DNA of 40,791 nt from a virus, in IMG/VR virus record IMGVR_UViG_3300008110_005446, positions 1 to 40,791 of that record. One strand, given 5' to 3'. Under the pieces are notes generated by a model, which saw only the letters and a list, made by a program, of their open reading frames with translations, made no database searches and was not told the origin of the DNA. Below are positions 602 through 34,569 of this stretch, in pieces; position 1 is the stretch's first letter, and each line of letters opens with the position of its first letter. The translations under genes and the position numbers were made by a program.

Positions 602-2191
602 ATGAACTTCAACACCAAAAATTACCCCGTAGTCTTGTTAAGCTACGATGAGCCTAATTATACACGAAATTTTATTAAATTGCAAGCCCTATACCCAAAC
701 GCTCTACATGTACATGGGATTTTTGGTAGCGACACTGCACACAAGGAAGTTGCTAGGTTGGTCCTAGAAGAAGATCCTACTGCTACACATGTTATCATTG
801 TAGATGGAGACAATGAGATACGTGATGATTTCATCAATGCTTCCTATAATTTTGTAGATGATGTAGACATAAACAATAATGTAGTTAGTTTCAGTGCTAG
901 GAACAATGTCAACGGGAATCAATACGGTAACGGTGGCATCAAAGTATGGCCTATTCATATGTTACAATCCATGCGTACACATGAGAACAGCGATAATCCA
1001 AATAGCATAGACTTTAACATAACCAACTACTTAGAACTAAATCGTGTAGGAAGTGATACTGTCATTAATGAAAGCCCGTTACAAGCATGGAGAAGTGGCT
1101 TTCGTGAGGGCTATAAACTAACATTATGGTCTAACAACTACAATGACTTTAAATGGAATTGGCGTAACTACGACAGGTTATGGAGATGGATGCACATAGG
1201 CAGTGATGTTAACAACGGACTATGGGCTATATATGGTGCTAGAATGGGATGTTTTTTAGCACTTAACGGGTATGACACCAGTAAATTGCGTGACAACAAC
1301 CATACGACTGAAATGTTTAACGGGTTCTATGATACTTATAAAGACAACCTAGAGGCTGAGTGTAATAGGATCGGTAATCTTATAAGAGTTAAAACAAATG
1401 ACCAAAGACTAACAAATGTATTGTCAAACTCAGAGAGCCAAGAGTTTAGAACTACTATCAAACCTATACTGCGTAGTCCAGAAAAATTCATAAAATACAA
1501 ATACTATCCACCATATGATGTAGTGTTTATTAGTTTCAATGAACCAAATGCAGATAAAAATTACAACTTACTTAAAGAAAAATGTCCAAAAGCAAAAAGG
1601 GTTGATGGGGTTGTAGGGATACACAATGCTCACATTGAAGCAGCCAAACTATGTGATACAGACTATTTTTGGGTAGTAGATGCAGACAGCATTATCATGG
1701 ACGATTTCATATTTGAATATGATATTGATTTCTACAGTATGGACACCGTCCGAGTTTGGCGTAGTAAGAACCTAGTCAATGGTTTGATATACGGCAACGG
1801 TGGAGTGAAACTATTACCTAGAATGTCTACTATAAGAATGTTAAAGAACAAGCCAGACATGACTACTAGTATTAGCACACATTACGAGCCTATATTTAAA
1901 ATTAGTAACATTACTGAATTCAATGTAGATTCCTTTAGTGCATGGCGTAGTGCATTTCGTGAATGTGTAAAATTAAGTAGCAAGATAATTGATAGACAAA
2001 ATGACAACGAGACACAAGTTAGATTAGATACTTGGTGTACATTAAATGAAGATGCTAGATACGGCTATTACTGCTACTCGGGTGCATTAGCTGGCAAAGA
2101 ATACGGATTAAAAAATAAAGGTGACATAGAAGCACTTAGCAAAATAAATGATTATGTATGGCTAAGAGAGCAATATGACAAATTTCACTGA
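602..2191 (+). CDS. Tandem-domain glycosyltransferase-like protein
   Basis: A 529-residue protein made of two copies of one domain, about residues 8-260 and 301-529. Each copy begins with a hydrophobic strand followed by Y/N-EPN (LLSYDEPN, FISFNEPN). Each then has an acidic D-x-D signature (VDGD near residue 68, VDAD at about 359-362), the phrase NG-x-x-YGNGG-x-K, and AWRS-x-FRE near its end. The DxD and fold order suggest a GT-A-type glycosyltransferase using a nucleotide sugar and a divalent metal; this is inferred from motifs. The frame is open back to 464, but ATG 602 is preferred because a late-promoter-like box ends 5 nt before it and the similarity starts there. It heads an operon; the next gene overlaps by 17 bp. 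Confidence 0.6.
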   Translation: MNFNTKNYPVVLLSYDEPNYTRNFIKLQALYPNALHVHGIFGSDTAHKEVARLVLEEDPTATHVIIVDGDNEIRDDFINASYNFVDDVDINNNVVSFSARNNVNGNQYGNGGIKVWPIHMLQSMRTHENSDNPNSIDFNITNYLELNRVGSDTVINESPLQAWRSGFREGYKLTLWSNNYNDFKWNWRNYDRLWRWMHIGSDVNNGLWAIYGARMGCFLALNGYDTSKLRDNNHTTEMFNGFYDTYKDNLEAECNRIGNLIRVKTNDQRLTNVLSNSESQEFRTTIKPILRSPEKFIKYKYYPPYDVVFISFNEPNADKNYNLLKEKCPKAKRVDGVVGIHNAHIEAAKLCDTDYFWVVDADSIIMDDFIFEYDIDFYSMDTVRVWRSKNLVNGLIYGNGGVKLLPRMSTIRMLKNKPDMTTSISTHYEPIFKISNITEFNVDSFSAWRSAFRECVKLSSKIIDRQNDNETQVRLDTWCTLNEDARYGYYCYSGALAGKEYGLKNKGDIEALSKINDYVWLREQYDKFH

Positions 2192-3137
2192 GATCCCGTT
2201 TGATAATATAGTTAAGTTTGGTCAACAAACAATGATGGACGAGGGTATATTCAGCATAAGCTGGATACTCGGAAGATTTTGTAATTACAAATGTAGCTAT
2301 TGTTGGCCCTATGCTAACACACAAATACCTGATCACCAAGAACTAGAAGTCTATATTAAAACTATGGACAACATTAGAATGCAAGCTAATCAAAATGGCT
2401 ACGCAAAGTTTCATTGGAGTTTCAGCGGTGGTGAACCAACTGCATATAAACACTTTCTAACACTAGCTGAGAAAGTATTACATGATAGCATTCACATGAC
2501 TACTAACTTAAGCCCAGGCATTCAATGGTGGGAACGTTGGTTGAAGGCTACCGCATCTAGTAGACGCCGTAGTATTACTGCTAGCTTTCACCATGAGTTT
2601 GCAAATGAAAAAGAGTTTGGTGATAAGATATTGTTCTTAAACGAAAACAATGTATTTGTCACAGTGAATCAAGTTATGGTACCTGAACAGTTTCAACAAC
2701 TCTATGATAGATGTAAACGCTTTGCTGATAGAGGAATCAACGTAACATTAAAGCCACAAAGTGACCCAACTGCTAGTAAAATAGTTGACGGGTATAGTGA
2801 AGATATGATACAATTGATGCGTACTGGATTCCCACAACATATACAAGAAAAAGAACTACTACAAATAAAATTGATAGATAATAGTAACACTGTATGGTAC
2901 TTAGACCAAGCAGAACGTTTCAATAGTTTTGGGTTTAACAAATTTAAAGGCTGGATGTGTAACAGTGGGTATCAGGGCATTGTCATACGTGAGAATGAAG
3001 TTAAGCGTAGTTATAGTTGCCATGATCCAATACTAGGAACATTAACCAATGGGTTTAAACTATTTGATAAACCCACAATTTGTATTACCCCAAGTTGCGT
3101 TAGTAGCGCAGATAGTAAGATACCCAAAGAAAAATGA
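2175..3137 (+). CDS. Radical SAM protein with FKGWxC C-terminus
   Basis: A 320-residue radical SAM enzyme. The 4Fe-4S motif CNYKCSYC is complete (Cys36, 40, 43), and SGGEP at 84-88 is the SAM-contacting GGEP motif. Near residue 255-260 comes FKGWMC, followed by further cysteines that look like a SPASM-like auxiliary cluster site. The same FKGWxCxxG phrase occurs in the radical SAM genes at 3898 and 11471 (minus), so the three form a subfamily. Radical SAM enzymes cleave SAM to a 5'-deoxyadenosyl radical that abstracts a hydrogen; the substrate here is unknown. It overlaps the upstream gene by 17 bp and the next by 4 bp (ATGA), so it is translationally coupled. Confidence 0.85.
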   Translation: MTNFTEIPFDNIVKFGQQTMMDEGIFSISWILGRFCNYKCSYCWPYANTQIPDHQELEVYIKTMDNIRMQANQNGYAKFHWSFSGGEPTAYKHFLTLAEKVLHDSIHMTTNLSPGIQWWERWLKATASSRRRSITASFHHEFANEKEFGDKILFLNENNVFVTVNQVMVPEQFQQLYDRCKRFADRGINVTLKPQSDPTASKIVDGYSEDMIQLMRTGFPQHIQEKELLQIKLIDNSNTVWYLDQAERFNSFGFNKFKGWMCNSGYQGIVIRENEVKRSYSCHDPILGTLTNGFKLFDKPTICITPSCVSSADSKIPKEK

Positions 3138-3901
3138 CGTTAAGACTTAACATATTTGACACAGTACAAAGAAGGATTCGTAAGAATAAATTTTTACCAG
3201 TGGATACTAATTTAGGTAAACATTGGTCAGGTACAGATGACAAAGAACTTTACCAAAAAAATTTATTAATTCAACCTAATGACTGGTATTATAGAAATCA
3301 CACGGTTACTTATACTCTTAATTCAGATGGATACAGAACACATGAATTCAAGGATATTGATTGGGCCAATTCAGTAGTAATATTTGGGTGTTCACACATA
3401 TTTGGTATTGGATTAGATGACAAAGATACTATTTCAAGTAGATTAGAAGAAATACTAAACATGCCAGTAATTAATATGGGAGCGACCGGCGCGTCAATGT
3501 TATTTAATTTACACAATTCAATGATCCTACGTGATGGATATCCTATACCTAAAGCTGTTGTGGTGTTTTGGCCCAATTATAATAGAATAGTAGAGTATCA
3601 TAAATATACAACTCAATTTCACGGAGTTTGGAATATGGAGCCGAATAGTTTACCTAACGCATGGTTCAAAAATGATAGTCATGCTATTGCAAATGCAATG
3701 TTTATGAGTAAGGCGGTTAAACTATTATGGCAAGAAAAATGTCCATACTACGAAACTACATGGGATGATAACACCCAATCTGTATTAAAGTGTGATTTAT
3801 TGAAATCCATACCCAATGATTATGCACGTGATATGTTACATTCAGGCATTGCGTCTGCTATATCTAATGCACAGACAATAGCAACCAAACTTAAATTATG
3901 A
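3134..3901 (+). CDS. SGNH/GDSL-like hydrolase
   Basis: A 255-residue protein. The GDS block appears as FGCSH at 84-88, with the Ser at the nucleophile position. NMGATGAS at about 114-121 matches the oxyanion-hole Gly block, and RDMLH gives the catalytic D-x-x-H at 233/236. SGNH enzymes hydrolyse or transfer acyl esters, often O-acetyl groups on glycans. About 75 extra N-terminal residues precede the domain and I do not recognise them. It is the first of three SGNH-type proteins in this block (also 5482 and 13622) and sits between two radical SAM genes with 4-bp overlaps on both sides. Confidence 0.65.
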   Translation: MTLRLNIFDTVQRRIRKNKFLPVDTNLGKHWSGTDDKELYQKNLLIQPNDWYYRNHTVTYTLNSDGYRTHEFKDIDWANSVVIFGCSHIFGIGLDDKDTISSRLEEILNMPVINMGATGASMLFNLHNSMILRDGYPIPKAVVVFWPNYNRIVEYHKYTTQFHGVWNMEPNSLPNAWFKNDSHAIANAMFMSKAVKLLWQEKCPYYETTWDDNTQSVLKCDLLKSIPNDYARDMLHSGIASAISNAQTIATKLKL

Positions 3902-4887
3902 AAATAGTAGAAATCAAACAAGATTGGCCAAAAGATAGATTGCTAGTCAACTATGCCATTCATAATATCTGTAATTACAAATGTTGGTATTGCTTTCCTG
4001 AAAGTAACTCAGGAGAATATACATGGCCTGATATTGATATTACTACTAACAATTTAATTCACTTATTGAAATACTACGAAACCAATTTAGGTAAAAAACA
4101 GTTTGAGTTGCATCTATTAGGAGGTGAACCCACATTGTGGCCAAAGTTAGGTATATTTGCACAACGATTGAAAACTGAATTTGGAAATAATATAAAAATA
4201 GAAATCACTACCAATGGATCCCGTACTTTACGTTGGTGGGAAGAAAATGGAAAGTATTTTGATAAAATTTTAATTAGTTGTCATCCAAATGAAGCAGACG
4301 AACACCATATCAAAGATGTTGCAGATTTACTATATAGGTTACCAGTGTATGTTGATGTTACTGTATTAATGGACCCGACTAATTGGAATAAAGCAATTGA
4401 AATGATAGATGTACTTAAACAAAGCAAACATCGATGGAGTATACAAACCTCAGAAGTAATACACGATAGTATTACTTATAGCAAAGATCAACAAGAATAT
4501 CTTAAAAAATATTTAAAACGAATACCTAATTTGCTGTGGAGCTGGAAAAATGCGACACACTATAATTATAAAACCAAAGTACATTACGAGAATGGTAAAG
4601 TTATTAATATCAAAAAAAATTATCTATTAATAAACAAGTTAAACTATTTTAAAGGATGGGAATGCGATATAGGTGTAGATAACATTACTATTAATTTTAC
4701 AGGTAATATTTCATCATCTTGTAAGCAAACTCTGTACGGATTAGATTTTGACTATAATTTATACCAATCTAATTTCATAAATGAGTTTACCCCCTCATTG
4801 ATTCCGATTACTTGTAGTAAACAAGGGTGTTATTGCGAACATGAATTTAATACTAGTAAACGTATTATCCCTATTAAGGTCATATAA
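3898..4887 (+). CDS. Radical SAM protein with FKGWxC C-terminus
   Basis: A 329-residue paralog of the protein at 2175. CNYKCWYC (Cys25, 29, 32) binds the radical SAM cluster and LGGEP is at 74-78. The C-terminal part has FKGWEC, then SSSC, and a final Cys group (TCSKQGCYC), which fits a SPASM-like auxiliary Fe-S site. It starts with ATGA overlapping the SGNH stop and ends with TAA directly followed by the ATG of the methyltransferase gene. The substrate is unknown. Confidence 0.85.
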   Translation: MKIVEIKQDWPKDRLLVNYAIHNICNYKCWYCFPESNSGEYTWPDIDITTNNLIHLLKYYETNLGKKQFELHLLGGEPTLWPKLGIFAQRLKTEFGNNIKIEITTNGSRTLRWWEENGKYFDKILISCHPNEADEHHIKDVADLLYRLPVYVDVTVLMDPTNWNKAIEMIDVLKQSKHRWSIQTSEVIHDSITYSKDQQEYLKKYLKRIPNLLWSWKNATHYNYKTKVHYENGKVINIKKNYLLINKLNYFKGWECDIGVDNITINFTGNISSSCKQTLYGLDFDYNLYQSNFINEFTPSLIPITCSKQGCYCEHEFNTSKRIIPIKVI

Positions 4888-5478
4888 ATGCTGATTGATA
4901 CTGAACATTTGCACTATTGGATGTGTGCTATTAGAGAGAGTAATAACCCGATGCGTACATTAGACGCATTCTGGAGTGGGCAACTTAAGAGTAAAGAATG
5001 GCTTATAAACTGCTTAGATGAACACGTACATTTTGGGTCATCAATTGATATACACGGTGGTTGGGTAGGTGTATTAGCTAGTATGATATTTCAAAGTAAT
5101 ATACCTGTGAAATATATTCGTAGCGTAGACATTGATCCATTATGCGAACATGTTGCTACCATGATGAATAAGATAGAAGAACAAGACGGTAGATTCAAGG
5201 CAGTTACAGGTGATATGTGTAACGTTCCTATACTAGGTGATATTGTTATCAATACCAGTTGTGAACATATTACACAAGAGCAATATGAATCATGGTTAAA
5301 TAATGTTCCAAAAGATAGTTTAGTTGTATTGCAAAGCAATGATTACAAAATACCCGAACATATTAGAACTAGCAATACATTACAAGAGTTTGAAGAACAA
5401 TCACATATAAACAAATTATATAGTGGTAGCTTAAAACTCCCACTATATACCCGACATATGATTATAGGACGACAGTAA
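4888..5478 (+). CDS. Class I SAM-dependent methyltransferase-like protein
   Basis: A 196-residue protein with the Rossmann methyltransferase layout. A first strand and glycine loop (SIDIHGGWVGVLAS, near residues 52-65) is followed by VDID (the acidic residue after strand 2, near 76-79). GDMCNVP is the motif after strand 3, and INTSCEH is at the end of strand 4, where the catalytic region lies. The C-terminal part is short. The transferred methyl group and acceptor are unknown. It is directly adjacent to the radical SAM gene before it (no gap) and 3 bp from the SGNH gene after it. Confidence 0.6.
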   Translation: MLIDTEHLHYWMCAIRESNNPMRTLDAFWSGQLKSKEWLINCLDEHVHFGSSIDIHGGWVGVLASMIFQSNIPVKYIRSVDIDPLCEHVATMMNKIEEQDGRFKAVTGDMCNVPILGDIVINTSCEHITQEQYESWLNNVPKDSLVVLQSNDYKIPEHIRTSNTLQEFEEQSHINKLYSGSLKLPLYTRHMIIGRQ

Positions 5479-5481
5479 GTT

Positions 5482-6252
5482 ATGATTACAGAAAAAATTA
5501 CTACAATTGGATTTTTTGGAGATAGTTTTTGCAATAAAGAGTCTAACCAACACTCGGACGAAAACAACTACGAAACATACATTCGTCAGTTATTACGTGC
5601 TAAAGGATACGAGCTAGTTAACTTAGGGATGGGCGGATCATCAGTTTGGGACCTTTATTTAAATCAACTAAAACCATGTATAGATTCTAATTCAATTCCT
5701 GATATATCTGTATTTGCATGGACTAATTCTGGTAGATTGTTTCATAGAATTGCTAGGAGTTTAAATCATACTTCTGCTCTTGCTGGACACAATAAAAAGA
5801 AAGAAGCAGACTTTAAAAAATTATTTCCTAATCAAGCTAACTTTTTTGATAAAGATGTGTGGGATGCGGCTAAACAATTTTATCTATACCTATATGATTC
5901 TGAAAAAGAAGATATAGAGTATGTTGCATTCTTGCAATATCTTGATAACAACGTTTTTAACAAGTGGCCGGAAAATAAGAAAATAATTCACTTATGGTCA
6001 TTTGGGGAATGGGATTTTATTAAACAATATAATGTAAATGATATTACATACGTACACCGATGGGTAAATGGTGTAGAAATAAGGCCACCGTTGATGTCGT
6101 TATCAGCAAAGCTGCCAACATATCCTATTCTCGATGACAGACCAAATCACATTAGCGGGCAGGAAAACAACAAACTAATTTCAGATGCTATTATATCAGG
6201 CATAGATAACTATCAATCTGGTAATTTAATTTATATAAGCTATTCATTATGA
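5482..6252 (+). CDS. SGNH/GDSL-like hydrolase
   Basis: A 256-residue protein with an orthodox FFGDSF block (Ser15), NLGMGGSSV for the second block, and DDRPNHIS near 218-225 for the catalytic Asp/His pair (spacing D-x3-H rather than D-x2-H). A tryptophan-rich middle part may form the substrate pocket. Such enzymes remove or transfer O-acyl groups. It overlaps the cobalamin-type radical SAM gene by 4 bp. It is distantly related to the proteins at 3134 and 13622, with different spacing, so these are not recent copies. Confidence 0.65.
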   Translation: MITEKITTIGFFGDSFCNKESNQHSDENNYETYIRQLLRAKGYELVNLGMGGSSVWDLYLNQLKPCIDSNSIPDISVFAWTNSGRLFHRIARSLNHTSALAGHNKKKEADFKKLFPNQANFFDKDVWDAAKQFYLYLYDSEKEDIEYVAFLQYLDNNVFNKWPENKKIIHLWSFGEWDFIKQYNVNDITYVHRWVNGVEIRPPLMSLSAKLPTYPILDDRPNHISGQENNKLISDAIISGIDNYQSGNLIYISYSL

Positions 6253-7805
6253 GCCACGTATTATTTTTTTCTCTCACGGGTAAACGTTGGGAAAGAGCAT
6301 TATGGCCGCACCGTGTGGCAACATTTTTACGCATGAATGATTGGGATGCTGAGGTTATTGATTTTACATCATTTTGGCAACTAGACGAGCTGCAAGAATT
6401 AGTGCGTAGTAGGTCTTCAGATAAAACTGTGATGTTTTGTTTTGGTACAGCATTCTTAAACCCATGGAGTCCTTACTTAAACGAATTCATAGTATGGCTA
6501 AAGAAAGAATACCCTAAGATACCAGTTGTAGTTGGTGGACAAAATGCATTAGTAACTCCCGCAGAAAATGTTGACTATTGGGTTGATAGTTACGGGGAGA
6601 ATGCAATTCTTGCATTATGCAAACATTTACTAGGAACGCTAGGTGCTCCTCTTGTTACTGACCCTGCATTCTTTGGAAGTAAAAAAGTTATTAGGGGGTT
6701 ACATACTTATCCTAGTACCCCGTTAGCCAGTTACTTAGTAGACTACGAGACTAGAGATTTTATATTGCCATATGAGTGCCCGCAAATTGAAACAGCACGT
6801 GGTTGTATGTTTGAATGTAGTTATTGCAACTTCCCTATCATAGGTCAATCTAAGGATGTAAGTGTAAGTAAAGAAGAATTTAAAATGCAAATGCAAACAG
6901 GGTTTGACAAGTGGGGAATTATTAACTGGCGTGTAATGGATGAGACCTTCAATGATCGTCCTGAAAAATTACAAAAGTATGCCGATGCAGTTGATGAATT
7001 AGGATACAACCCCTGGATTTGCGGCTTTGCTAGAGGTGATTTAGTGGTTAAACATAAAACACATTGGGATACTTATATAAGATTAGGATTTCTTGGTCAT
7101 AGTATGGGTCTTGAAACTTTCAACAGAGAAGCAGGTAAACTTGTACGAAAGGGTATGGATCCAGAAAAAATACAAGAAGGATTACTAGAATTTCAAGCAT
7201 ATACGGACATTCATGCACCAAAGCGTTATAGAGCCAACATTCAATTAATATGCGGGATACCAGGTGAGACACATGAATCTTGGCACAATAGTTTAGATTG
7301 GTTGAATACTAAATGGCATAGACAAAGTGCCAGCGCACATATTTTAGAAATTGGTGATTATGATGAAACTCTAACCAATCAAAGTCGATTTACTAAAGAA
7401 CTTGTGGCTAATGGATTATTGAAACTAGAGGCTAGACAAAATCCGGGATACGAAGTCACTAAAGATAACAACGGCAATGTTATCTTTAAATCTACCACAC
7501 CTCGAGGTGGTGGGGTAGGTAGCACCAGAAATGATATCGTAATATGGAAACATCATACTATGGACTGGTATCAAGCTGAATCGTTAGTCAAAGAATTTTA
7601 TTCAGATTATGGCTTTACAGGTCTTAGAGGTTGTAATCCTTTCTTAACAGACCGTCTATTTGTATACCATGAAACTAACAGGTATGAGGATGTATATGAT
7701 TACAAATTGTCTGACCTTGACACCGATGATAATAAGTTTAAAACCTTCGTACAAAATTATATTAACAACAAATTAAATTGGAAAACTAATGTACAAATAC
7801 AATGA
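6249..7805 (+). CDS. Cobalamin-binding-type (class B-like) radical SAM protein
   Basis: A 518-residue protein. Residues 1-130 look like the B12-binding Rossmann domain usual in class B radical SAM enzymes: strand VVVGGQNA at 93-100, then VDYWVDSYGENA at 108-119, equivalent to the vdyvvrGEGE segment. The His-containing lower-ligand motif (DxHxxG) is not visible. The radical SAM motif CMFECSYC is at 186-193, followed by VMDETFND near 235. Members of this class methylate unreactive carbon or phosphorus centres or rearrange substrates, often in natural product and glycan pathways. A C-terminal extension of about 150 residues is unrecognised. It overlaps the next gene by 17 bp. Confidence 0.8.
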   Translation: MSHVLFFSLTGKRWERALWPHRVATFLRMNDWDAEVIDFTSFWQLDELQELVRSRSSDKTVMFCFGTAFLNPWSPYLNEFIVWLKKEYPKIPVVVGGQNALVTPAENVDYWVDSYGENAILALCKHLLGTLGAPLVTDPAFFGSKKVIRGLHTYPSTPLASYLVDYETRDFILPYECPQIETARGCMFECSYCNFPIIGQSKDVSVSKEEFKMQMQTGFDKWGIINWRVMDETFNDRPEKLQKYADAVDELGYNPWICGFARGDLVVKHKTHWDTYIRLGFLGHSMGLETFNREAGKLVRKGMDPEKIQEGLLEFQAYTDIHAPKRYRANIQLICGIPGETHESWHNSLDWLNTKWHRQSASAHILEIGDYDETLTNQSRFTKELVANGLLKLEARQNPGYEVTKDNNGNVIFKSTTPRGGGVGSTRNDIVIWKHHTMDWYQAESLVKEFYSDYGFTGLRGCNPFLTDRLFVYHETNRYEDVYDYKLSDLDTDDNKFKTFVQNYINNKLNWKTNVQIQ

Positions 7806-15987: not shown

Positions 15988-15992
15988 ATTAA

Positions 15993-16022
15993 TATTTAAG
16001 ACATAAACCCTATAACTAAATA
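15993..16022. promoter_or_regulatory. Divergent late-promoter-like boxes
   Basis: The minus-strand box TTAAATA (15999-15993) ends 5 nt before the ATG at 15987. The plus-strand box CTAAATA (16016-16022) ends 5 nt before the ATG at 16028. There is no Shine-Dalgarno sequence between box and start on either side. Both operons would give nearly leaderless mRNAs. Confidence 0.5.
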
Positions 16023-16027
16023 TTTTA

Positions 16028-17965: not shown

Positions 17966-17968
17966 ATT

Positions 17969-26164: not shown

Positions 26165-26182
26165 AAAATTATTTTCTATTGA

Positions 26183-26197: not shown

Positions 26198-26207
26198 CTT
26201 TATACGT

Positions 26208-26897
26208 ATGAATTTTAACTATTACTATAACCATGTACCCGGAGAAAGTCCCTCACGTAATAACCTTATCTATACCAGTCTGATATCTGATGATAAGAAG
26301 GTATTTGTACAATGGTATCATAACGATACTGAGTATCATAAAGGGCAGAATCAAGTAGTAGATCCATTATTAATGGAAATTAAATGGGAACGTGAGTTAA
26401 AGTATTTAAAATTGATGCATGGATCATTCCCCGATCATGTACCCAAGATATTAGATATTGATTATAAGTTACGTAAAATCTATTTACAGATAGACGGACC
26501 AGACTTTTGGCAGCGTAGTTTAGATGGTACGGGAAACTTTGATGATGTATTACCCGATTGGCGTGAGCAAATGTTAGAAATAATAGATAGTCATCATCTG
26601 TTAAATCTATACAAATACAGTATGCATCCTAGCAGTTATTTTATAGTTGACGGTAAATTGCGTAGTATTAACTACTTTTTTACATATCATTTAGACGAGG
26701 GACCGATCTCAATTAGTGACCATTTAAGTCATATATACAGTACACGACAAGAACAGTTAAAGTTATATACAGATATGTTGGGCATTGACTGGAATACTCC
26801 GCAACCATTAAATGTATTAGAACACTTATGTTGGGATAGTTTTCGCACTAATTATCCAGAAGATTTCATAGATAAAGTAAAACAATGTATAAGATGA
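26208..26897 (+). CDS. Kinase-like-fold protein, paralog of 16696
   Basis: A 229-residue protein, the same length as its paralog at 16696 and alignable along it (WERELKYLKLMH, PKILDIDY, IYLQIDG, LPDWREQ, MHPSSYFIVDGKLRSINYF). The overall order suggests a kinase or phosphotransferase fold, but the usual catalytic HxD...N and DFG-like residues are not evident. It may be a pseudokinase or a different fold entirely. It leads a three-gene plus operon and overlaps the next gene by 13 bp. Confidence 0.4.
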   Translation: MNFNYYYNHVPGESPSRNNLIYTSLISDDKKVFVQWYHNDTEYHKGQNQVVDPLLMEIKWERELKYLKLMHGSFPDHVPKILDIDYKLRKIYLQIDGPDFWQRSLDGTGNFDDVLPDWREQMLEIIDSHHLLNLYKYSMHPSSYFIVDGKLRSINYFFTYHLDEGPISISDHLSHIYSTRQEQLKLYTDMLGIDWNTPQPLNVLEHLCWDSFRTNYPEDFIDKVKQCIR

Positions 26898-27427
26898 TTT
26901 TATGGCATCGTGACTTAGATTTATCTGACTTTTATATTAAAGCAGAAGAACGTGGGTTTTATAATAATGCAAATGAAAAAAATTTGATTCAATCTATAGC
27001 AAATGAACGTGAATGGCAAGTATGGATTTTATACTATAATGATTCTGCTGTAGGGTGTGTAGCCGCACATAGTATAGAAGAAGGTTATAGAATATGTACT
27101 AGAACTTGTATTCTTACTGATTTAATACCCACTAACTCATTGCGTACTCGTAATCAAATCATTACTCATCAACATATCACAGCACAATTCTTTATACCCA
27201 AATGTATTGAATGGGTTAATGGAAAGGGTGACATGTATATTACCACACATCCTAGCAATGTAGGAACACAACGATTAGTACATAATATATGGGCGCCGTC
27301 ATTAGTAAAGACTAATGTATTGTTTAAAGCATTTGATAAAGAATATAGAGGTCATACACAGACTTTTTGGAAGCTCAATTCTGACGAATTCCTAAGTCAA
27401 CTTAGTAAAGTTAAATCATGGCAGTAA
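26885..27427 (+). CDS. Possible GNAT-fold protein
   Basis: A 180-residue protein. The strand pair WQVWILYYNDSAVGCVAAHS near residues 45-63 looks like strands 2-4 of a GNAT acetyltransferase. The Q/R-x-x-G-x-G/A acetyl-CoA motif is not clear; the nearest candidate is the HPSNVGTQRLVHN segment near 120. I would call it hypothetical with a possible GNAT fold. A second Met at codon 4 is an alternative start. It overlaps the preceding kinase-like gene and, by 10 bp, the following gene. Confidence 0.4.
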   Translation: MYKMILWHRDLDLSDFYIKAEERGFYNNANEKNLIQSIANEREWQVWILYYNDSAVGCVAAHSIEEGYRICTRTCILTDLIPTNSLRTRNQIITHQHITAQFFIPKCIEWVNGKGDMYITTHPSNVGTQRLVHNIWAPSLVKTNVLFKAFDKEYRGHTQTFWKLNSDEFLSQLSKVKSWQ

Positions 27428-28719
27428 CTCCATTTATAAAACGCGGTAGTAAAAACGTATGGTGTATAGTAGATAATCATGCGAAATTTTCTAATGGTTG
27501 GGCAAGAGAAATATCAATTAACTTATCTGACCATATGATTTTCAAAATTGATCTTTTTGGATATGACATATATATCGGCGATGATGAAGATGAATTGTTA
27601 AGAACAGTATCAATAGATTATGAGTATGCTATTGTTGTTGCTTCTGGAACTTCGTTTACATTATCTGATAAACTTTTTCCGTTAATAGAAGATTTATTGA
27701 ATAAGGATTTTTTCATTGCAGGGCATATACTAGATCGCGGGGCAGAATATCCTGAATTACACCATCAATTTTATGTAATTAATCTAGTAGAATATAGAAA
27801 ATGTCATTGCCCTATAATAGGTCCGGGTAAGGAATTTAATAGTTTAGATATGCCCTGGCATGGACATCATATAATGCGTATAGCAGAATATAAGACAATA
27901 GATATAGGTACAGCGATTCGTAATGCAAAAAGATATCTATACTATGAACATGAGCATGTATTTTTAAAAGAGTTATCTAACATATACCATGATCAATTTT
28001 TTGCTAACAACTTTTTTGCATCATGGAATTCAGATAAGTTGTATACTGATATTGCATTCGCCGGGCCCGTCGATCAATACGTAACAGTAGGTATAGGTTT
28101 GAATTGGATTAAAAATTTAGAAATTATTGGATTCACTAAAGATTCTAATGTTGTATTCACAGACATAAATCACAATTGTCTGGTATATATGAAGAAATTA
28201 ATTGAAACATGGGACGGAATGAATTATACTCAGTTCTACAAAGATAACAGTCCAATGGGTATTAACGGGGAGTCCCCTATACCACAATCTTATTATGATA
28301 AAACTCAATCTGAGTGGGAACAGTTTATATCTACCTTTGATGATTGGGCATCAATATGGAATCAAGTACGACAGCTAAAATTTAAGTATATACTTACCAA
28401 CTATATGTCAAATTACAACTTTGATTGGATCGACTCCGAAAAACGGACAGTTATCAATTTAAGTGACTTATTTACGCATACACCCTATATATTTGTTCAT
28501 AGTTTGAAATATAGGATTGCTAGTGAAAACAAATTATTCAAAATGCTAGTAGAAAAAGATCCTGAAATAACATTGATGTTGACCTCACGGGCAGTTAATG
28601 GATTTGCAGAAAATAATCAATTAATAGGTAACCGACTGATAGTTGGTAAAGTAAAAGATTTTGCATTAACAGACATTAAAGATTTAAGGTGTCCGCCCTG
28701 GCATAAAAATGATTGGTAA
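27418..28719 (+). CDS. Unrecognised protein, possible methyltransferase-like second half
   Basis: A 433-residue protein of no family I recognise. The first half (1-215) has alternating hydrophobic strands and acidic loops. Around residues 220-255 the order GPVDQY...VGIGLNWIKNLEIIG...VVFTDIN resembles motif I and the acidic strand-2 end of a Rossmann methyltransferase, so the second half may bind SAM or a nucleotide sugar. It has no signal peptide or membrane segment. It ends in a 12-bp palindrome shared with the convergent TauD-like gene. Confidence 0.45.
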   Translation: MAVTPFIKRGSKNVWCIVDNHAKFSNGWAREISINLSDHMIFKIDLFGYDIYIGDDEDELLRTVSIDYEYAIVVASGTSFTLSDKLFPLIEDLLNKDFFIAGHILDRGAEYPELHHQFYVINLVEYRKCHCPIIGPGKEFNSLDMPWHGHHIMRIAEYKTIDIGTAIRNAKRYLYYEHEHVFLKELSNIYHDQFFANNFFASWNSDKLYTDIAFAGPVDQYVTVGIGLNWIKNLEIIGFTKDSNVVFTDINHNCLVYMKKLIETWDGMNYTQFYKDNSPMGINGESPIPQSYYDKTQSEWEQFISTFDDWASIWNQVRQLKFKYILTNYMSNYNFDWIDSEKRTVINLSDLFTHTPYIFVHSLKYRIASENKLFKMLVEKDPEITLMLTSRAVNGFAENNQLIGNRLIVGKVKDFALTDIKDLRCPPWHKNDW

Positions 28720-28729
28720 CTTATAAGTT
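28718..28729. other. Palindrome at convergent stop codons
   Basis: AACTTATAAGTT is a perfect 12-bp palindrome. The plus-strand TAA (28717-28719) and the minus-strand TAA (28723-28721) both fall in or at its edge, so the two convergent genes end one base apart. It is too short, and lacks a loop, to be a terminator. Confidence 0.5.
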
Positions 28730-29581
28730 AATTGGGTAGTCAAACATTGCTCTATGCAATAATCGTTTGTCCATATTATTAAATGCCCATCGTTTGTGCA
28801 AACCCATGCGATTGTCAGATATAACTATGTCACCTAATTCCCAATTATGATGATAGCAATATTTTTCCTGTGTCATATGTTCTGCTAGTTTAGAAAATAT
28901 TTTTTTACTTTCATCTCTTGTTAAGGCATTTATATGATGAGTATTATAAAAAGAGAACATTAGGTGCTTTTTACCCATTAGGCTAGTACATACAATCGGT
29001 TGTGTATAACCTTCAAATTCTTCACCAGGAGCCCACATTGTACCGTCATCATCTTTGCTGAAGCGGCTTACATTAAAATCTACATATCGTGTCATGGTAA
29101 CAGTTGATTTTTCTAAAAAATTTTTAGTTTCTTCATCTAAATCTTCGTATGCCATGATACTATTAAGCCAAGAAGTTTTAGATCCTTCTACACCCTCAAC
29201 GGCATGTAGCCAAATTAACGCTACTTTATTCTTTTGCATTGACCAATGAAAATCCAAATGCCATGCCATTTCTTCTTTGTGGCTAGATATTCCTCCTACT
29301 TGATATTCATTTTTTTTACCACCTACTCTGAGTAATTTTCCATTAGTACCGGCGACTTCTAATAATTTCATTTGTTCGTCACTAACGCTCAAAAAAGAAC
29401 CAATATCTCTGAACATACTAACTACTCGTAACTCATCAGATAATGATAATTTTTGTTTTTTTATTACTACTAAGGTATGTGTAGCTATCAATTTAGAAAT
29501 GACATTTATGTCAGCTTGAGTAGCCAATGCTAAATCAAACTCAGTTATAATGGGTGCCCAATTGACATAATCAATTTTCAT
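28721..29581 (-). CDS. TauD/TfdA-type 2OG/Fe(II) dioxygenase
   Basis: A 286-residue protein of the TauD/TfdA family (normal length about 280). H108-L-D110 (AWHLDFHW) gives the iron pair, H262 (GLHKRW) the distal ligand, and Arg277 (LLHRAMF) the 2-oxoglutarate anchor. The middle GSKTSWLNSIMAY matches the conserved G-x-T-x-F/W-x-N/D region. Family members hydroxylate small organic acids, amino acids or sulfonates. It overlaps its HxN paralog by 11 bp, and the two may work as a pair. Confidence 0.8.
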   Translation of the reverse strand: MKIDYVNWAPIITEFDLALATQADINVISKLIATHTLVVIKKQKLSLSDELRVVSMFRDIGSFLSVSDEQMKLLEVAGTNGKLLRVGGKKNEYQVGGISSHKEEMAWHLDFHWSMQKNKVALIWLHAVEGVEGSKTSWLNSIMAYEDLDEETKNFLEKSTVTMTRYVDFNVSRFSKDDDGTMWAPGEEFEGYTQPIVCTSLMGKKHLMFSFYNTHHINALTRDESKKIFSKLAEHMTQEKYCYHHNWELGDIVISDNRMGLHKRWAFNNMDKRLLHRAMFDYPINL

Positions 29582-30446
29582 TTAGATAGTCCTGATCAGG
29601 GAAATCAAATACCATACGATGCAATACTCTTGTGTAGATTTGCTCAAATCTCCAGCGTTTATGAATGCCTAGCCATTGTTCACTTAACACTATATCTCCG
29701 TCTTCCCAATCATGATGATAGCAATATTTTTCTTGAATAGTGTGTTCAAATAAAGGTTTGGCTATCTCCAATGATTCTTCCCTAGACATTCCTTCAAATT
29801 TTTCTAGTTGTAATAGAGAAAAATATAAGCCTGTTTTTCCTGCATTATTTGTATGTATAATATTTGGCGTAAAATTTTCTATTACAAATTTACTTTTACC
29901 AAACGTATCACTATCTTTATATTCAGTAGTATGTTGCATTCCACCATAATATATGCATTTTAAATCATGCAGTTTATGTTTAGTGTCACTATCTAAATCA
30001 TTGTATGATAGTATATTATTGTTCCAACTAGTTCTAGAACCTTTTGTACCTTTGACTCCATACAGCCAAACTATAGGAGATCGATCTTCTTTATACGGGT
30101 GATTGCAATGCCATTGCATTTCATCTACATGGCCTGCAATACCCGGCTTACCGTGTTCGTTTAATTCGCCTGACACCCTGCAAACAATTCCAGTAGGGTC
30201 TTGAGTAATGTCTGCTACACAGTCCATAAAAAATTCATCTTCAGGTTTAAACAGAGGATTAGGGTTTTTAAACATTTTAGCAATTCTAACTTGGTCAGCT
30301 ACTGTAAGATGTTGACCTCTTACAACAACACATGTATGTTTAGCAATCAGTCTTGCAATTTCTAATATGTTTTCTTGTGTAGCCGTATTGAAGTCAAAAT
30401 CTTCTAATAATGCAGTCCATCCGTTTTCATGTATTTTGTATTTCAT
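29571..30446 (-). CDS. TauD/TfdA paralog with HxN instead of HxD
   Basis: A 291-residue paralog of the protein at 28721, with similar EKYCYHH-W-GDIV and GIHKRWRF segments, distal H262 and Arg277. The first iron motif reads W-H113-C-N115-H (EMQWHCNHPY), so the carboxylate ligand is replaced by Asn. All other family landmarks (GSRTSWNNNILSY) are kept and the frame is intact. It might be inactive, use another ligand (His116 or Cys114), or have altered chemistry, as in 2OG halogenases where this Asp is Gly or Ala. It overlaps the acyltransferase gene by 4 bp. Confidence 0.75.
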   Translation of the reverse strand: MKYKIHENGWTALLEDFDFNTATQENILEIARLIAKHTCVVVRGQHLTVADQVRIAKMFKNPNPLFKPEDEFFMDCVADITQDPTGIVCRVSGELNEHGKPGIAGHVDEMQWHCNHPYKEDRSPIVWLYGVKGTKGSRTSWNNNILSYNDLDSDTKHKLHDLKCIYYGGMQHTTEYKDSDTFGKSKFVIENFTPNIIHTNNAGKTGLYFSLLQLEKFEGMSREESLEIAKPLFEHTIQEKYCYHHDWEDGDIVLSEQWLGIHKRWRFEQIYTRVLHRMVFDFPDQDYLNEN

Positions 30447-31201
30447 AAATTAAATCCCAATGTAAGAATATCATCTTGTATTAAACTACTATCTAATTCA
30501 TTAACCGCTTCTATAAATCTAAACACATTATCAACTGGTAATGTTTTTAATATGTCTAGTTTAATGTTCCACCATTTAGTTTCTAAGAGTTGTTCTTTGA
30601 TTTTGTCTGGAAATCTATCTCTTAATGGCTTAGCTGGTATACCACCAGCTATAGTATATGGTTCTATATCAGTAGACACAACCGCATTTGCCGCAATCAC
30701 GGATCCTGTACCGATAGTTACACCTGGCATGACTACAATACCATCACCCAAAAACACATCGTTTTCTATAATTACTGGTTCTTGAATGATATCTAATTTT
30801 ACATTATCCGGAAAATTTAATAATATCTTTTCTTCTTCTGAGTAATTAGATTGATGAGCCATTATAGTATCTGAATTTATGCTCACTCCAGAGATGTTAT
30901 GCATTCCGGCAGCAATAGTACATCTACGTCCTATTCCACTATGTCTGCCCATAAAAATGTTATCACGCATATAGCCACCGTCTCTGATGCTAGAGTATGC
31001 ACCTATAAATATTCTGTTGTGATTGCTTTTAAAATTTTGAGACCAATTCATTGATCCTTTTTCAAATAAAGTGCCGTTAATATACTCTAAATTAGTATGT
31101 CGTATATTATATAATGGCAAGTCATCTGTTTTTAACTCTATGTCCTGTGACAATTTATTTTCAAGGAACATGGACAATTTATGTTCTATACTATGATTCA
31201 T
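30443..31201 (-). CDS. Hexapeptide-repeat acyltransferase (CatB/XAT type)
   Basis: A 252-residue protein with a left-handed beta-helix. Repeats run from IGAYSSIRDG near 72 through GRHSGIGRRCTIAAG to ENDVFLGDGIVVMPGVTIGTG and IAANAVVSTDI, then the typical exit IAGGIPAKPLRDRF. GMHNIS near 101 holds the His usual for catalysis. These enzymes move acetyl or other acyl groups from a CoA or ACP donor to sugars or antibiotics. ATG 31201 is chosen over 31237 because TATAAATA-N5-ATG sits there. It is the first gene of a minus operon with the two TauD-like proteins. Confidence 0.8.
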   Translation of the reverse strand: MNHSIEHKLSMFLENKLSQDIELKTDDLPLYNIRHTNLEYINGTLFEKGSMNWSQNFKSNHNRIFIGAYSSIRDGGYMRDNIFMGRHSGIGRRCTIAAGMHNISGVSINSDTIMAHQSNYSEEEKILLNFPDNVKLDIIQEPVIIENDVFLGDGIVVMPGVTIGTGSVIAANAVVSTDIEPYTIAGGIPAKPLRDRFPDKIKEQLLETKWWNIKLDILKTLPVDNVFRFIEAVNELDSSLIQDDILTLGFNL

Positions 31202-31206
31202 AGCTA

Positions 31207-31242
31207 TATTTATATCTCTACTTTTGGGTACGTACATAAATA
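31207..31242. promoter_or_regulatory. Symmetric divergent late promoters
   Basis: ATAAATATAGCTATG occurs on both strands as an inverted pair. The minus-strand box TATAAATA (31214-31207) is followed by TAGCT and the ATG at 31201. The plus-strand box CATAAATA (31235-31242) is followed by the same TAGCT and the ATG at 31248. Spacer and start codon are identical in both directions, so the box, spacer and ATG act as one unit. Confidence 0.7.
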
Positions 31243-31247
31243 TAGCT

Positions 31248-31817
31248 ATGGATTACTCAAAGGTTATAGCAATAGAAGTTGACATTGACATAGACTATGA
31301 TATGATGCGTGAAGAATTTCTAAGTATTTTAGACAGTCAATGGAATAATCATTCATCGTATCTACCCGGATACAATCATGTAACTTACAAATCTTTATTT
31401 TTAACAAAGAATAATCATGGGGTTTTTGATGATTTTAAAGTAGCAAAAACTATACCACATTCAGAATGGTATTGGGATGATAGTATTAATATGCCTTATA
31501 CCAAAACAGTTATAGATTCGTTACCGTCAAAATCTATTGGTATAGTTAGAATAATGGTAACCAACGGCGTATTACCATTACATACTGATTGCAACTCAAA
31601 TACTTCGGTTGATCATACATATAGGTTAGGATTAACTATTTCTCCCATGTGTAGTGATAAGTTGCAATTAGGTAATACATTCATTCCATATAAAGCACTA
31701 TTTTTTAATGATTGTGTTCCTCACGGATTTTTATCAAGTGCTGACACACAAATGAGTGTTAGAATTTTTGGTGATTTTGAATATGAGAAATTTAATATAA
31801 AAAGGATCTATGCATGA
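31248..31817 (+). CDS. 2OG/Fe(II) oxygenase-like protein
   Basis: A 189-residue protein with H112-T-D114 (PLHTDCN), distal H159 (CVPHGFLS) and R172 (SVRIFGDF), a full ligand set. The frame is open to ATG 31224, but ATG 31248 is preferred because the promoter box ends 5 nt before it. In the gene order the protein sits with another oxygenase (31814) in a two-gene plus operon, overlapping by ATGA. Confidence 0.65.
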   Translation: MDYSKVIAIEVDIDIDYDMMREEFLSILDSQWNNHSSYLPGYNHVTYKSLFLTKNNHGVFDDFKVAKTIPHSEWYWDDSINMPYTKTVIDSLPSKSIGIVRIMVTNGVLPLHTDCNSNTSVDHTYRLGLTISPMCSDKLQLGNTFIPYKALFFNDCVPHGFLSSADTQMSVRIFGDFEYEKFNIKRIYA

Positions 31818-32272
31818 AAAATGTTGAGTATCTGGATTTAGATAGAATTCCAGATTATCTAATTGTTGATATATACCAGACTATTAGAAATACCCCTCCC
31901 AAAGAAAGACACTCAGTTCCTGAAGGAACTGACGCTGAAAAATATAATGCTTGGAATAGTATTAAAGTAAGTGATAAGTTAAAAGAATTTGTAAAAACTT
32001 TATTTGACTTTGAGCATGATGTGCATATTTTTGTACTGTCAGGTGATTTGCCTGTACATAAAGACAATACTAGAAATGTTGCCTATAACTATGTTTTAGA
32101 AACGGGCGGGGCAACAACTAACTTCCATGATGAAGATAAAGTACTAATAGAAGAAAATCATATTCAACCGTTTATATGGCATAAACTAAACGTAGCTGAG
32201 TTTCATAGTGTGTTGATACCAAATCCACCAAGAATTGTAGTAAGTGTGTCAGTGCATTGGAAAACAGATTAA
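31814..32272 (+). CDS. Small 2OG/Fe(II) oxygenase-like protein
   Basis: A 152-residue protein, the shortest of the set. H82-K-D84 (PVHKDN), distal H131 (AEFHSV) and R140 (PPRIVVSVSV) fit a minimal double-stranded beta-helix with all ligands. It is translationally coupled to the gene before it. Its TAA shares bases with the stop of the convergent adenylation-domain gene (4-bp overlap). Confidence 0.65.
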   Translation: MKNVEYLDLDRIPDYLIVDIYQTIRNTPPKERHSVPEGTDAEKYNAWNSIKVSDKLKEFVKTLFDFEHDVHIFVLSGDLPVHKDNTRNVAYNYVLETGGATTNFHDEDKVLIEENHIQPFIWHKLNVAEFHSVLIPNPPRIVVSVSVHWKTD

Positions 32273-32916
32273 ACGTTTTTCCAAGTATTCCCATTAATAC
32301 CATCTAACTTTCTTTTTAAGAATTTTTTAGTAGATACATCAAAGATATCCCCGGTGTGCCAATTATTGATTACACATTCGCCTTCATCAGTAAAGTCTAC
32401 AACATAATCTGATTTAGGTGTAAAGTCGAATGCTTCACTGTTATAGCCTATGAAAACAGGGGGAGGCATTTCTGTCATTCCATACCAGTTAGCAACTAGT
32501 TTAACACCTTTATTTAGAAAATCATTTATCATTTGCTGATTTACTTGTCCACTTCCAGTTACCATGTAACGGACACAACTCATGTCCATATTGTTCCATT
32601 CTACTGTTTCTTTTAATAATTCCCAATGACGAGGTATAAGTGCGATGTATGTAGGTCTAAATTTATTGAATTTTTGTAAGTAATCAGATGCTTCAAATTT
32701 AGCTGACACTAGTTTTGCTCCTGCTCTATATGCAGGCATCGTAGTAACTGTATAGTGTGCTATTGTATTACCAGGAAATACATCTAAGACTATATCTTCA
32801 CTACTTAATCTAATTTCTTTAATAGACCTTTGTATAGATGATTCAATATAATCCCATGTATGGATAACTGTTTTTGGTGCTTTAGTTGTACCAGACGTTA
32901 GTAATGTTAAACTCAT
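32269..32916 (-). CDS. Minimal ANL-type adenylation domain
   Basis: A 215-residue protein covering only the middle of the acyl-CoA synthetase/adenylation fold. The phosphate loop TSGTTKAPK (A3) is at 7-15, YGMTE (A5) at 145-149 and TGDIF (A7) at 188-192. It ends at a hinge-like KRKLDGINGN (A8). Usual members have about 150 residues before A3 and about 110 after A8, including the A10 lysine; both are absent. The ATP-binding signature is intact, so adenylate formation is possible, but the catalytic Lys must come from elsewhere or be dispensed with. ATG 32916 starts 1 nt after the FkbM stop; an upstream ATG at 32928 would add four residues. Confidence 0.7.
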   Translation of the reverse strand: MSLTLLTSGTTKAPKTVIHTWDYIESSIQRSIKEIRLSSEDIVLDVFPGNTIAHYTVTTMPAYRAGAKLVSAKFEASDYLQKFNKFRPTYIALIPRHWELLKETVEWNNMDMSCVRYMVTGSGQVNQQMINDFLNKGVKLVANWYGMTEMPPPVFIGYNSEAFDFTPKSDYVVDFTDEGECVINNWHTGDIFDVSTKKFLKRKLDGINGNTWKNV

Positions 32917-32917
32917 T

Positions 32918-33763
32918 TTAAAACACAAATACGTATTTCATTATTCTAGCAATAGTATCGTTTGCCTCTTCAGTAGGGTTGACCGGGCACAGATAATCAG
33001 GTTGTTCTTTCTCAATAGGTACAGCTAGTATATTACTTACTCCGCTTAGTCCAAAAGGATTAATATCGTTTTCTTTAAATGTTTTATTAATCGGTTTATG
33101 TCTGCATACTACCCAATATTGTTTGTAGTCTCTAGAATCTAACCATTTATAACATTTTTCCCAAACTTCCTTATTAAGTGCTTCATAGAAAATAACAGGA
33201 CGTTGATTCTTAATAGTCTTTGCCGCGCCTTTAAGCACATCTAATTCTGCACCCTCTACATCAATCTTCATTAACGTAACTTCTGTTAAATCTTCTAAGT
33301 TGTCTAGTTTGATTACTTGTACCTCAATACCTTCGTTATTAACTCCTACTTCACCATAGTTGCCTGATATGTTTTCATCAAAGTTGCTTATAGTCATAGT
33401 GCCATTCTTACTACCTATTGCAGCATTGTATATCCTAATAGGTTTGTCTTTACAGTTATATGCGGCTACTGAAAAGTGATTAGGGTGTGGTTCAAAAGCT
33501 AGCACAGGGCACCCTACTTGTTGATATATTGCTAAGGCATGATATCCAATATTAGTACCTATGTCTAAGTAAGTAGATTCGTGCGTAAGATATCTAGACA
33601 TAACTTGTACCTCTGCATCACAGTACTCGCCAAAGAATAGTATCGATTGACTTACTACAGAATCATTTTTGTAGACTGCCATTTTACCTACTTTACTATC
33701 AGTAACTACTAAGTTTGGGGACAACTGTTCAAGAGTCTCGGTGATGTTTAAATGTTTTGTCAT
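32918..33763 (-). CDS. FkbM-family methyltransferase
   Basis: A 281-residue SAM methyltransferase of the FkbM type. YLDIGTNIGY at 65-74 is motif I, AFEPHPNHF at 89-97 the strand-2 region, NAAIGSKNG the strand-3 region, and MKIDVEGAELDVLKG at 165-179 the family signature. FkbM proteins O-methylate sugars and small molecules and are common in surface-glycan loci. It is followed by the adenylation-domain gene and preceded by a diverged paralog 8 nt away. Confidence 0.85.
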   Translation of the reverse strand: MTKHLNITETLEQLSPNLVVTDSKVGKMAVYKNDSVVSQSILFFGEYCDAEVQVMSRYLTHESTYLDIGTNIGYHALAIYQQVGCPVLAFEPHPNHFSVAAYNCKDKPIRIYNAAIGSKNGTMTISNFDENISGNYGEVGVNNEGIEVQVIKLDNLEDLTEVTLMKIDVEGAELDVLKGAAKTIKNQRPVIFYEALNKEVWEKCYKWLDSRDYKQYWVVCRHKPINKTFKENDINPFGLSGVSNILAVPIEKEQPDYLCPVNPTEEANDTIARIMKYVFVF

Positions 33764-33771
33764 TATATTGT

Positions 33772-34569
33772 TTAGAATAGTATTTTATAATTTGCAAGAC
33801 GTTGTACCATATTAGAATAATCTTCTCCTGCTAATACTTCAACTAAATCGTTTGGCTGCATATTTTCTTCAGGCACAGCTAAAATACTGCTAACGCCTGC
33901 CTTTCCAAACAAATCTTCTTCTGACTTTTTAAAGTTCTCACCAATTGGTTTAGTTAAACAGGTGACCCAGTATTGTTTATATTGTTTACTATTTAAAAAA
34001 GTATAACAATCAGACCAAACTGTCAAGTCTATTGCTTGATACATTATAACTGGTCTATATTTCTTAATGATTTTAGATGAACCTTTTAATATCTCAAATT
34101 CATGACCATTAGTAGTAATCTTCATAACATTTATCTTTTCAGATAGTTCTGATATGTCATCTAGTTTTTTACAAGGAACTTCAATATCATTCAACAATGT
34201 AACTGTGCCTTTTGCGCTACTAAGTGCAGTATGGAATAATTTAATTGGTTTGTTTTGACAGTTAAACGCAGACAATGCAAAGTGATCAGGATTAGGTTCA
34301 AAACCATATACTTTGCATTTAGTCAATTGATTAATAGCAACACATCTATATCCTATATTTGATCCAATATCTACAAAAATAGATTCTTCCTTCAAGTATG
34401 AAGATAGCATATACAATTCAGCACTGTATAATTCTCCGTATCCGATTAGGGCAGTACTAGTAACGCTATCAGTATTAGCCCTATACACACACAGTTCCCC
34501 AAATTTAGTGTCAGTGGTACCTAAATTAGACTTAAGTTTGTCAAAATGTTCTTGTAATTCGTAACTCAT
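33772..34569 (-). CDS. Diverged FkbM-family methyltransferase paralog
   Basis: A 265-residue paralog of the protein at 32918, with FVDIGSNIGY at 65-74 and GFEPNPDHF at 89-97, and similar ends (G-x-SxILAVP). The family signature, MKIDVEGAE in the neighbour, reads MKITTNGHE here (149-157). Asp and Glu at the active-site strand are thus replaced by Thr and Asn, and a short stretch before it is deleted. SAM binding should be kept but catalysis may be lost. It is the first accessory gene of the minus operon; a weak box TATATATA (34581-34574) ends 4 nt before its ATG. Confidence 0.75.
   Translation of the reverse strand: MSYELQEHFDKLKSNLGTTDTKFGELCVYRANTDSVTSTALIGYGELYSAELYMLSSYLKEESIFVDIGSNIGYRCVAINQLTKCKVYGFEPNPDHFALSAFNCQNKPIKLFHTALSSAKGTVTLLNDIEVPCKKLDDISELSEKINVMKITTNGHEFEILKGSSKIIKKYRPVIMYQAIDLTVWSDCYTFLNSKQYKQYWVTCLTKPIGENFKKSEEDLFGKAGVSSILAVPEENMQPNDLVEVLAGEDYSNMVQRLANYKILF

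Follow-up and report, generated by a model that had tools for sequence, protein, structure and literature searches.

A conserved syntenic cluster of radical SAM and oxygenase-like genes in a lineage of large T4-like phages

Radical S-adenosylmethionine (SAM) genes have been noted before in T4-like phages. A 2017 article credits the T4-like marine genome TARA_ERS488813_N000010 with 12 of them, together with an A-type iron-sulfur (Fe-S) carrier and a glutaredoxin (PMC5332604); in 2020, radical SAM cassettes were noted in the host recognition cluster of the T4-like pelagimyophages, a large island with tail fibres and glycosyltransferases (PMC7029224); and in VP_139, a T4-like Lake Baikal methylotroph phage of 35% GC that also carries methyltransferase genes, the radical SAM genes were read as biosynthesis of pyrroloquinoline quinone (PQQ) (PMC7678222). 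Here we describe a dense cluster of radical SAM and double-stranded beta-helix (DSBH) proteins in the IMG/VR viral contig IMGVR_UViG_3300008110_005446. The whole contig of 40,791 bases is called the window; 48 genes were called in it (numbered from g01), its GC content is 32-37%, and the cluster, at 602-34569, is 99.7% coding.

Each of these systems differs from the present locus. By its description in the accessible part of that article, the TARA genome is an Fe-S observation, presented with no conserved cluster, gene order, 2-oxoglutarate (2OG) partners or function (PMC5332604). The pelagimyophage cluster is hypervariable and lies between vrlC and gp14 (PMC7029224), whereas the one described here has a conserved core and a PAAR-nrdBA flank, in the window as well as in a relative, G002; the cultured pelagimyophage HTVC008M gave no match to the N-terminal twitch radical SAM family. 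VP_139 differs, by description, in its PQQ reading, PqqE being unsupported in this window. The large Vibrio phages K566, KVP40 and D479 resemble the locus in carrying several radical SAM genes, and in the cultured K566 N-terminal twitch types alternate with GT8 and GT4-like glycosyltransferase genes, near nrdA and the lipopolysaccharide (LPS) genes PagP and LpxC. However, identity between the K566 proteins and g12 is no more than 21-24%, and in the K566 stretch examined only the N-terminal twitch proteins and NrdA, among the window proteins, found a match. Virus-encoded glycosyltransferases also decorate virion proteins in mycobacteriophages (Freeman 2023, as cited in PMC12619734) and in PBCV-1. 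The predicted fold of g01 consists of two GT-A domains, with the PBCV-1 capsid glycosyltransferase as its top PDB match (E 6.6e-4). To our knowledge, no radical SAM or 2OG suites accompany virion glycosylation in either of those systems.

An earlier sequence-only reading of the window considered this density far beyond what is usual in a phage. This holds against T4, CBB and HTVC008M (one radical SAM gene each) and P-SSM2 and S-PM2 (none), but the density is not unique, given KVP40 (five), K566 and D479 (six each) and the published 12 of PMC5332604. No earlier description of the conserved syntenic module was found in the open-access literature searched, most subscription papers and all preprints lying outside that search.

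Conservation of the cluster and its two main enzyme classes

The cluster is real. A second copy of 15130-36164 is found in contig L009 with a 99.97% match, and this stretch is therefore not an assembly artefact; chance is excluded because motifs and gene order are kept in dozens of independent contigs. Loci were fetched around g29 and g12, and 83 non-redundant IMG/VR loci were retained after near-duplicates had been dropped, in which the median number of distinct window families per locus is 14. The pairs g05-g08, g17-g18, g11-g12 and g15-g16 are adjacent in 44, 42, 40 and 40 of them, respectively, whereas with shuffled labels a pair was adjacent in at most 19. The g15-g16 pair is divergent, never being found on the same strand in its 40 loci, and the strand switches are conserved. 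That these genes might never co-occur elsewhere, a possibility admitted by the sequence-only reading, is itself refuted by this shared order, and none of the 650 uncut homologues scored has lost the radical SAM motif.

When g24 served as an independent anchor, its gene turned up in at least 323 viral contigs, and in 71 of the 80 best loci a radical SAM family of the window lies no more than 3 kb away. All 14 large records anchored on g24 carry 6-15 radical SAM genes and the 18 records of the first anchors (g29, g12) carry 7-17 each, so that the range in the large contigs tested is 6-17 (32/32). The core amounts to about 20 genes, among them nine radical SAM genes, several 2OG oxygenase-like genes and those for a QueC-like PP-loop ATPase, a pyridoxal phosphate (PLP)-like enzyme, methyltransferase-like and kinase-like proteins, a GNAT-like protein and the glycosyltransferase/methyltransferase-like g32. 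Accessory genes vary, and at the variable edges g10, g21, g26-g28, g33 and g36-g40 are present in few relatives. Profile scans with g12 and g14 found no relative in 84,980 prokaryote genomes, a result that relies on two peptide patterns for each protein and leaves distant cellular relatives possible.

The window is part of the genome of a large T4-like phage, in agreement with the phage origin first proposed for it. Beyond the cluster lies the following run of genes:

34610..40703, - strand: phage flank with SleB-type hydrolase, unknown 677-aa protein, PAAR, phrog_527, glutaredoxin, NrdB and NrdA

The 220-kb relative G002 has the matching order nrdA-nrdB-glutaredoxin-g44-PAAR-g42-g41-cluster-g01, its NrdA and NrdB are 84% identical to those of the window, and its capsid protein has 64-68% identity to its counterparts in large T4-like phages, among them Vibrio 2.275.O and PA5oct. 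A lineage of large T4-like phages shares the cluster as a conserved syntenic module.

Eleven radical SAM proteins with intact CxxxCxxC had been counted from the letters, and profile searches bear the count out: each has one such motif and a PF04055 match (E 6.7e-15 to 7.2e-7), which exceeds the Pfam cut-off in ten. The eleventh, g26, scores under that cut-off; its CxxxCxxC is nevertheless intact and an HMPTM zinc ribbon is present (E 3.2e-14). Three proteins (g09, g10, g12) match the N-terminal twitch family NF033640 over its full length and above its curated cut-off of 170 bits. The HMPTM-type trio g25, g26 and g29 shares the PF23545 zinc ribbon (E 9e-14 to 2e-14), with PF04055 above cut-off for g25 and g29, while g07 has a weak B12-binding domain and a below-cut-off similarity to P- and C-methyltransferases.

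g02, 2175..3137, + strand: radical SAM, core (PF04055 E 3.6e-10)
g04, 3898..4887, + strand: radical SAM, core (PF04055 E 4e-13)
g07, 6249..7805, + strand: B12-binding radical SAM, PhpK/HpnR-like, core (PF04055 E 4e-12; PF02310 E 5e-4; TIGR04479 E 4e-14, below cut-off)
g08, 7789..8880, + strand: radical SAM/SPASM-like, core (PF04055 E 1.4e-10)
g09, 8873..10285, + strand: N-terminal twitch radical SAM, core (NF033640 384 bits)
g10, 10282..11508, + strand: N-terminal twitch radical SAM (NF033640 333 bits)
g11, 11471..12379, - strand: radical SAM, core (PF04055 E 1e-12)
g12, 12372..13625, - strand: N-terminal twitch radical SAM, core (NF033640 344 bits)
g25, 21546..22604, - strand: HMPTM-type radical SAM with zinc ribbon, core (PF23545 E 9e-14; PF04055 E 7e-13)
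g26, 22629..23756, - strand: HMPTM-type radical SAM (PF23545 E 3e-14; PF04055 below cut-off)
g29, 25127..26164, - strand: HMPTM-type radical SAM, core (PF23545 E 2e-14)

The companion claim, of thirteen DSBH proteins with eleven complete HxD...H...R/K sets, agrees exactly in its count of complete sets. In 11 of the 13 candidates the set is complete, and alignments of 4-26 homologues show it to vary little or not at all, but profiles tie only eight of the 13 to known 2OG families. TauD (PF02668) matches g33 and g34 strongly, the Asp/Arg hydroxylase family (PF05118) matches g19 and, weakly, g16, and profile-profile links join g19, g21, g22, g20, g18 and g16. The two incomplete proteins are g21, without HxD in register, and g34, with HCN in its place. 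For g23, g24, g27, g36 and g37 the support is the conserved triad; g24 had no match in Pfam or in a PDB profile search, and PDB profile searches with g20 and g14 likewise returned nothing useful.

g16, 16028..16699, + strand: 2OG oxygenase-like, core (PF05118 E 0.005; triad invariant in 26)
g18, 17375..17965, + strand: 2OG oxygenase-like, core (profile link to g22 98%; triad)
g19, 17969..18523, + strand: Asp/Arg hydroxylase-type 2OG oxygenase (PF05118 E 5e-10)
g20, 18510..19031, - strand: 2OG oxygenase-like, core (profile link to g22; triad invariant)
g21, 19028..19627, - strand: 2OG-fold homologue, triad incomplete (profile link to g19)
g22, 19624..20136, - strand: 2OG oxygenase-like (profile links; triad)
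g23, 20133..20759, - strand: candidate 2OG oxygenase (motif only)
g24, 20759..21565, - strand: candidate 2OG oxygenase, widespread core marker (H178xD180, H234, R247; 323 viral contigs)
g27, 23782..24528, + strand: candidate 2OG oxygenase (motif only)
g33, 28721..29581, - strand: TauD-type 2OG oxygenase (PF02668 E 1e-30)
g34, 29571..30446, - strand: TauD-type, HCN instead of HxD (PF02668 E 4e-24)
g36, 31224..31817, + strand: candidate 2OG oxygenase (motif only)
g37, 31814..32272, + strand: candidate 2OG oxygenase (motif only)

Possible products of the pathway

Tailoring of a glycan or natural product had been suggested from the enzyme mix, and a glycan remains the reading that we favour on indirect evidence: a phage pathway in which an unusual glycan is tailored and, still in the cytoplasm, joined to LPS core or a virion protein has, in our estimate, slightly less than an even chance. 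Glycosyltransferases are linked to the core by the fold of g01, whose BFVD matches include viral glycosyltransferases, by the K566 arrangement and by genes beside the core in other relatives. The core of G032 (331 kb) and G006 (145 kb) continues directly into g01, a g01-like gene and two GT8-like genes with a profile match to glycogenin (E 2e-4); near these lies a carbamoyltransferase (G032) or nucleotide-sugar-dehydrogenase-like gene (G006), then virion-like proteins, followed in G032 by tail-fibre-like genes recognised by eye. A virion protein is slightly favoured over LPS core as the acceptor, since in these two relatives the core is next to both glycosyltransferases and virion-like genes. 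Attachment in the cytoplasm fits because the Wzx-type flippase (PF01943) and Wzy polymerase (PF04932) families, which would mark an O-antigen or capsule locus, are absent from 19 records in which controls were positive. In G002, two genes labelled GT8 without Pfam support have that label supported by a profile match to glycogenin, and a second locus combines four N-terminal twitch radical SAM genes with TPR-GT9 and carbamoyltransferase genes; its RfaE/HldE-like heptose genes, next to nrdA, also point to sugars. Accessory genes of relatives include those for sulfation (sulfotransferase, APS-kinase-like; L041:5856-6488 and 17291-18085) and, by eye, possibly desaturation and acylation.

From family chemistry we infer how enzymes and substrates might be paired. 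The sugars would be rebuilt by the radical SAM enzymes: g07 (B12-type) and the HMPTM types would C-methylate them, and the twitch/SPASM types would dehydrogenate or epimerise them. The 2OG enzymes would hydroxylate the sugars; methyl, acyl, amide, carbamoyl or sulfate groups may then be added as decoration. Still in the cytoplasm, the GT-A proteins (g01, GT8-like) would transfer the glycan onto LPS core or a virion protein, where it could alter adsorption, superinfection or host recognition.

Several observations weigh against this glycan pathway. No curated family, at scores above its cut-off, ties a core enzyme to sugar as its substrate; so far as sugars are indicated, it is by folds, accessory genes and neighbours, and the virion-like neighbours owe their names to inspection by eye and weak similarity. 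The PLP-like g15 has no match to a sugar-aminotransferase family, the fold match of g32 is weak (E 3e-3), and GT8 Pfam matches occur in only three of 19 records; all IMG/VR records may be fragments, and genes not found may therefore sit elsewhere. Twitch/SPASM domains are, in addition, typical of peptide-modifying radical SAM enzymes.

Direct modification of a protein without any sugar, in which a virion or host protein is hydroxylated, methylated and cross-linked in trans in the manner of polytheonamide-type peptides, would suit the N-terminal twitch, SPASM-like and B12 radical SAM enzymes, the 2OG enzymes of the Asp/Arg hydroxylase family and the virion-like genes near the core in G032 and G006. 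We consider it unlikely, as it leaves the glycosyltransferase, carbamoyl, heptose and sulfate genes of the relatives unexplained and as neither a precursor of the ribosomally synthesised and post-translationally modified peptide (RiPP) type nor a widely recurrent small open reading frame (ORF) occurs in the gaps of the window or its relatives. The lack of a precursor had been remarked on for the window from its letters; the commonest small ORF in the relatives' gaps is found at four loci and resembles a membrane protein. Rather less likely is hypermodification of the genome, that is, a complex modified base in the phage DNA. Ribonucleotide reductase genes are adjacent, and PP-loop, PLP, GNAT, kinase-like, ANL and radical SAM types recur in such pathways, but redox enzymes are here far more numerous than the known base pathways need, and of 13 IMG/VR records one has a thymidylate-synthase homologue, which KVP40 and other T4-like phages also carry.

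The reading given to VP_139 (PMC7678222) raises the prospect of a small-molecule or cofactor pathway that boosts the metabolism of the host, for instance PQQ in methylotrophs, and the window is close in GC content to that phage. PQQ itself is rejected on the PqqE model, which gave 16-22 bits against a cut-off of 381 in the ten proteins scanned; no PqqA-like small ORF recurs, nine conserved radical SAM genes are more than PQQ needs, and a pathway of this general kind seems to us improbable. Very improbable is a loose collection of unrelated auxiliary genes that recombination brought together in a hypervariable island. Such islands do exist in pelagimyophages (PMC7029224) and the cluster edges do vary, but the adjacency of core pairs far exceeds that of the shuffles, strand switches are fixed and motifs are intact in every homologue scored, so that for the core this explanation was already disfavoured.

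A bolder reading, a phage-only radical-chemistry pathway of about 20 enzymes that gives a jumbo T4-like lineage a chemically unprecedented decoration of the virion or infected cell, with no cellular counterpart, is less likely than not. If the module makes a dedicated product, very dense radical SAM and 2OG chemistry would be something that a widespread phage lineage has conserved, and not a stray auxiliary gene, and the module would supply new enzymes and a means of studying surface remodelling by oxygen-sensitive radical and oxygen-using enzymes together. The smaller version in cultured Vibrio phages makes part of this question testable now.

Other genes of the window and its relatives

The remaining genes of the cluster are listed below (AF2, AlphaFold2). 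For g01, the ATG at 602 is the most likely start, as first called, the mechanical ORF list reaching upstream to a TTG at 464; ahead of it, the left contig end (window 1-601) holds some 600 bases without a convincing gene.

g01, 602..2191, + strand: tandem GT-A-type glycosyltransferase-like, DGD and DxD motifs (AF2 pLDDT 76; weak GT2 Pfam)
g03, 3134..3901, + strand: SGNH-like (motif by eye; no Pfam match)
g05, 4888..5478, + strand: class I methyltransferase-like, core (motif by eye; synteny)
g06, 5482..6252, + strand: SGNH-like (motif by eye)
g13, 13622..14425, - strand: SGNH-like (motif by eye)
g14, 14412..15149, - strand: PP-loop ATPase, QueC-like, C-terminal Cys cluster, core (weak PF06508/PF01171)
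g15, 15142..16044, - strand: PLP-enzyme-like, core (weak NF006967)
g17, 16696..17385, + strand: kinase-fold-like, core (resembles g30 by eye; synteny)
g28, 24513..25130, - strand: class I methyltransferase (PF08242 E 5e-13)
g30, 26208..26897, + strand: kinase-fold protein, core (PDB profile match TTK kinase E 5e-4)
g31, 26885..27427, + strand: GNAT-like, core (motif by eye; synteny)
g32, 27418..28719, + strand: N-half GT-A-like, C-half methyltransferase-like, core (AF2 pLDDT 71; weak Foldseek matches E 3e-3)
g35, 30443..31237, - strand: hexapeptide acyltransferase (PF00132)
g38, 32269..32928, - strand: AMP-binding (ANL) fragment (PF00501 E 1e-18)
g39, 32918..33763, - strand: FkbM methyltransferase (PF05050 E 1e-19)
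g40, 33772..34569, - strand: FkbM methyltransferase (PF05050 E 1e-11)

Of the enzymes said to be interleaved with the two main classes, profiles recovered the ANL domain, the hexapeptide acyltransferase and the methyltransferases g39, g40 and g28, and more weakly the PP-loop and PLP enzymes, while the SGNH proteins are recognised by eye only. SGGADS and CxxCxxC are kept across 16 homologues of g14. The usual catalytic Asp of kinases is missing from g30, and both g30 and g17 are possibly atypical kinases or pseudokinases.

In the flank, a split nrdA was ruled out, as the frame continues towards the contig end and G002 encodes a full 777-aa NrdA. The 677-aa protein g42 (window 35200-37233) adjoins PAAR, is 60% identical in G002 and is possibly a tail protein. 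Among 50,697 phage records, neither g42 nor g29 had a tblastn match and window 1-25000 had no megablast match.

Genes for Fe-S assembly also occur in the relatives: seven of the 13 IMG/VR records have IscA, and in G002 IscU borders the cluster (IscU/IscA at L130:7364-8242, G002 147.4-148.2 kb, and L231:2581-3670, G032 282.6-283.7 kb). Just before nrdA, G002 encodes an RfaE/HldE-like nucleotidyltransferase and a PfkB-type kinase as separate ORFs, plus a cupin (137.7-138.8 kb; L129:17732-18827), the first two being possibly a phage-borne ADP-heptose module. Near the radical SAM region of K566 (L121), genes for nicotinamide phosphoribosyltransferase, a PnuC-like protein and nicotinamide mononucleotide (NMN) adenylyltransferase suggest NAD salvage. 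Finally, halogenase-like genes lie in or near the cluster in G004 (L232:14638-16248) and G032 (L231:3679-4929), with 30% and 22% identity, respectively, to the annotated tryptophan halogenase of HTVC008M.

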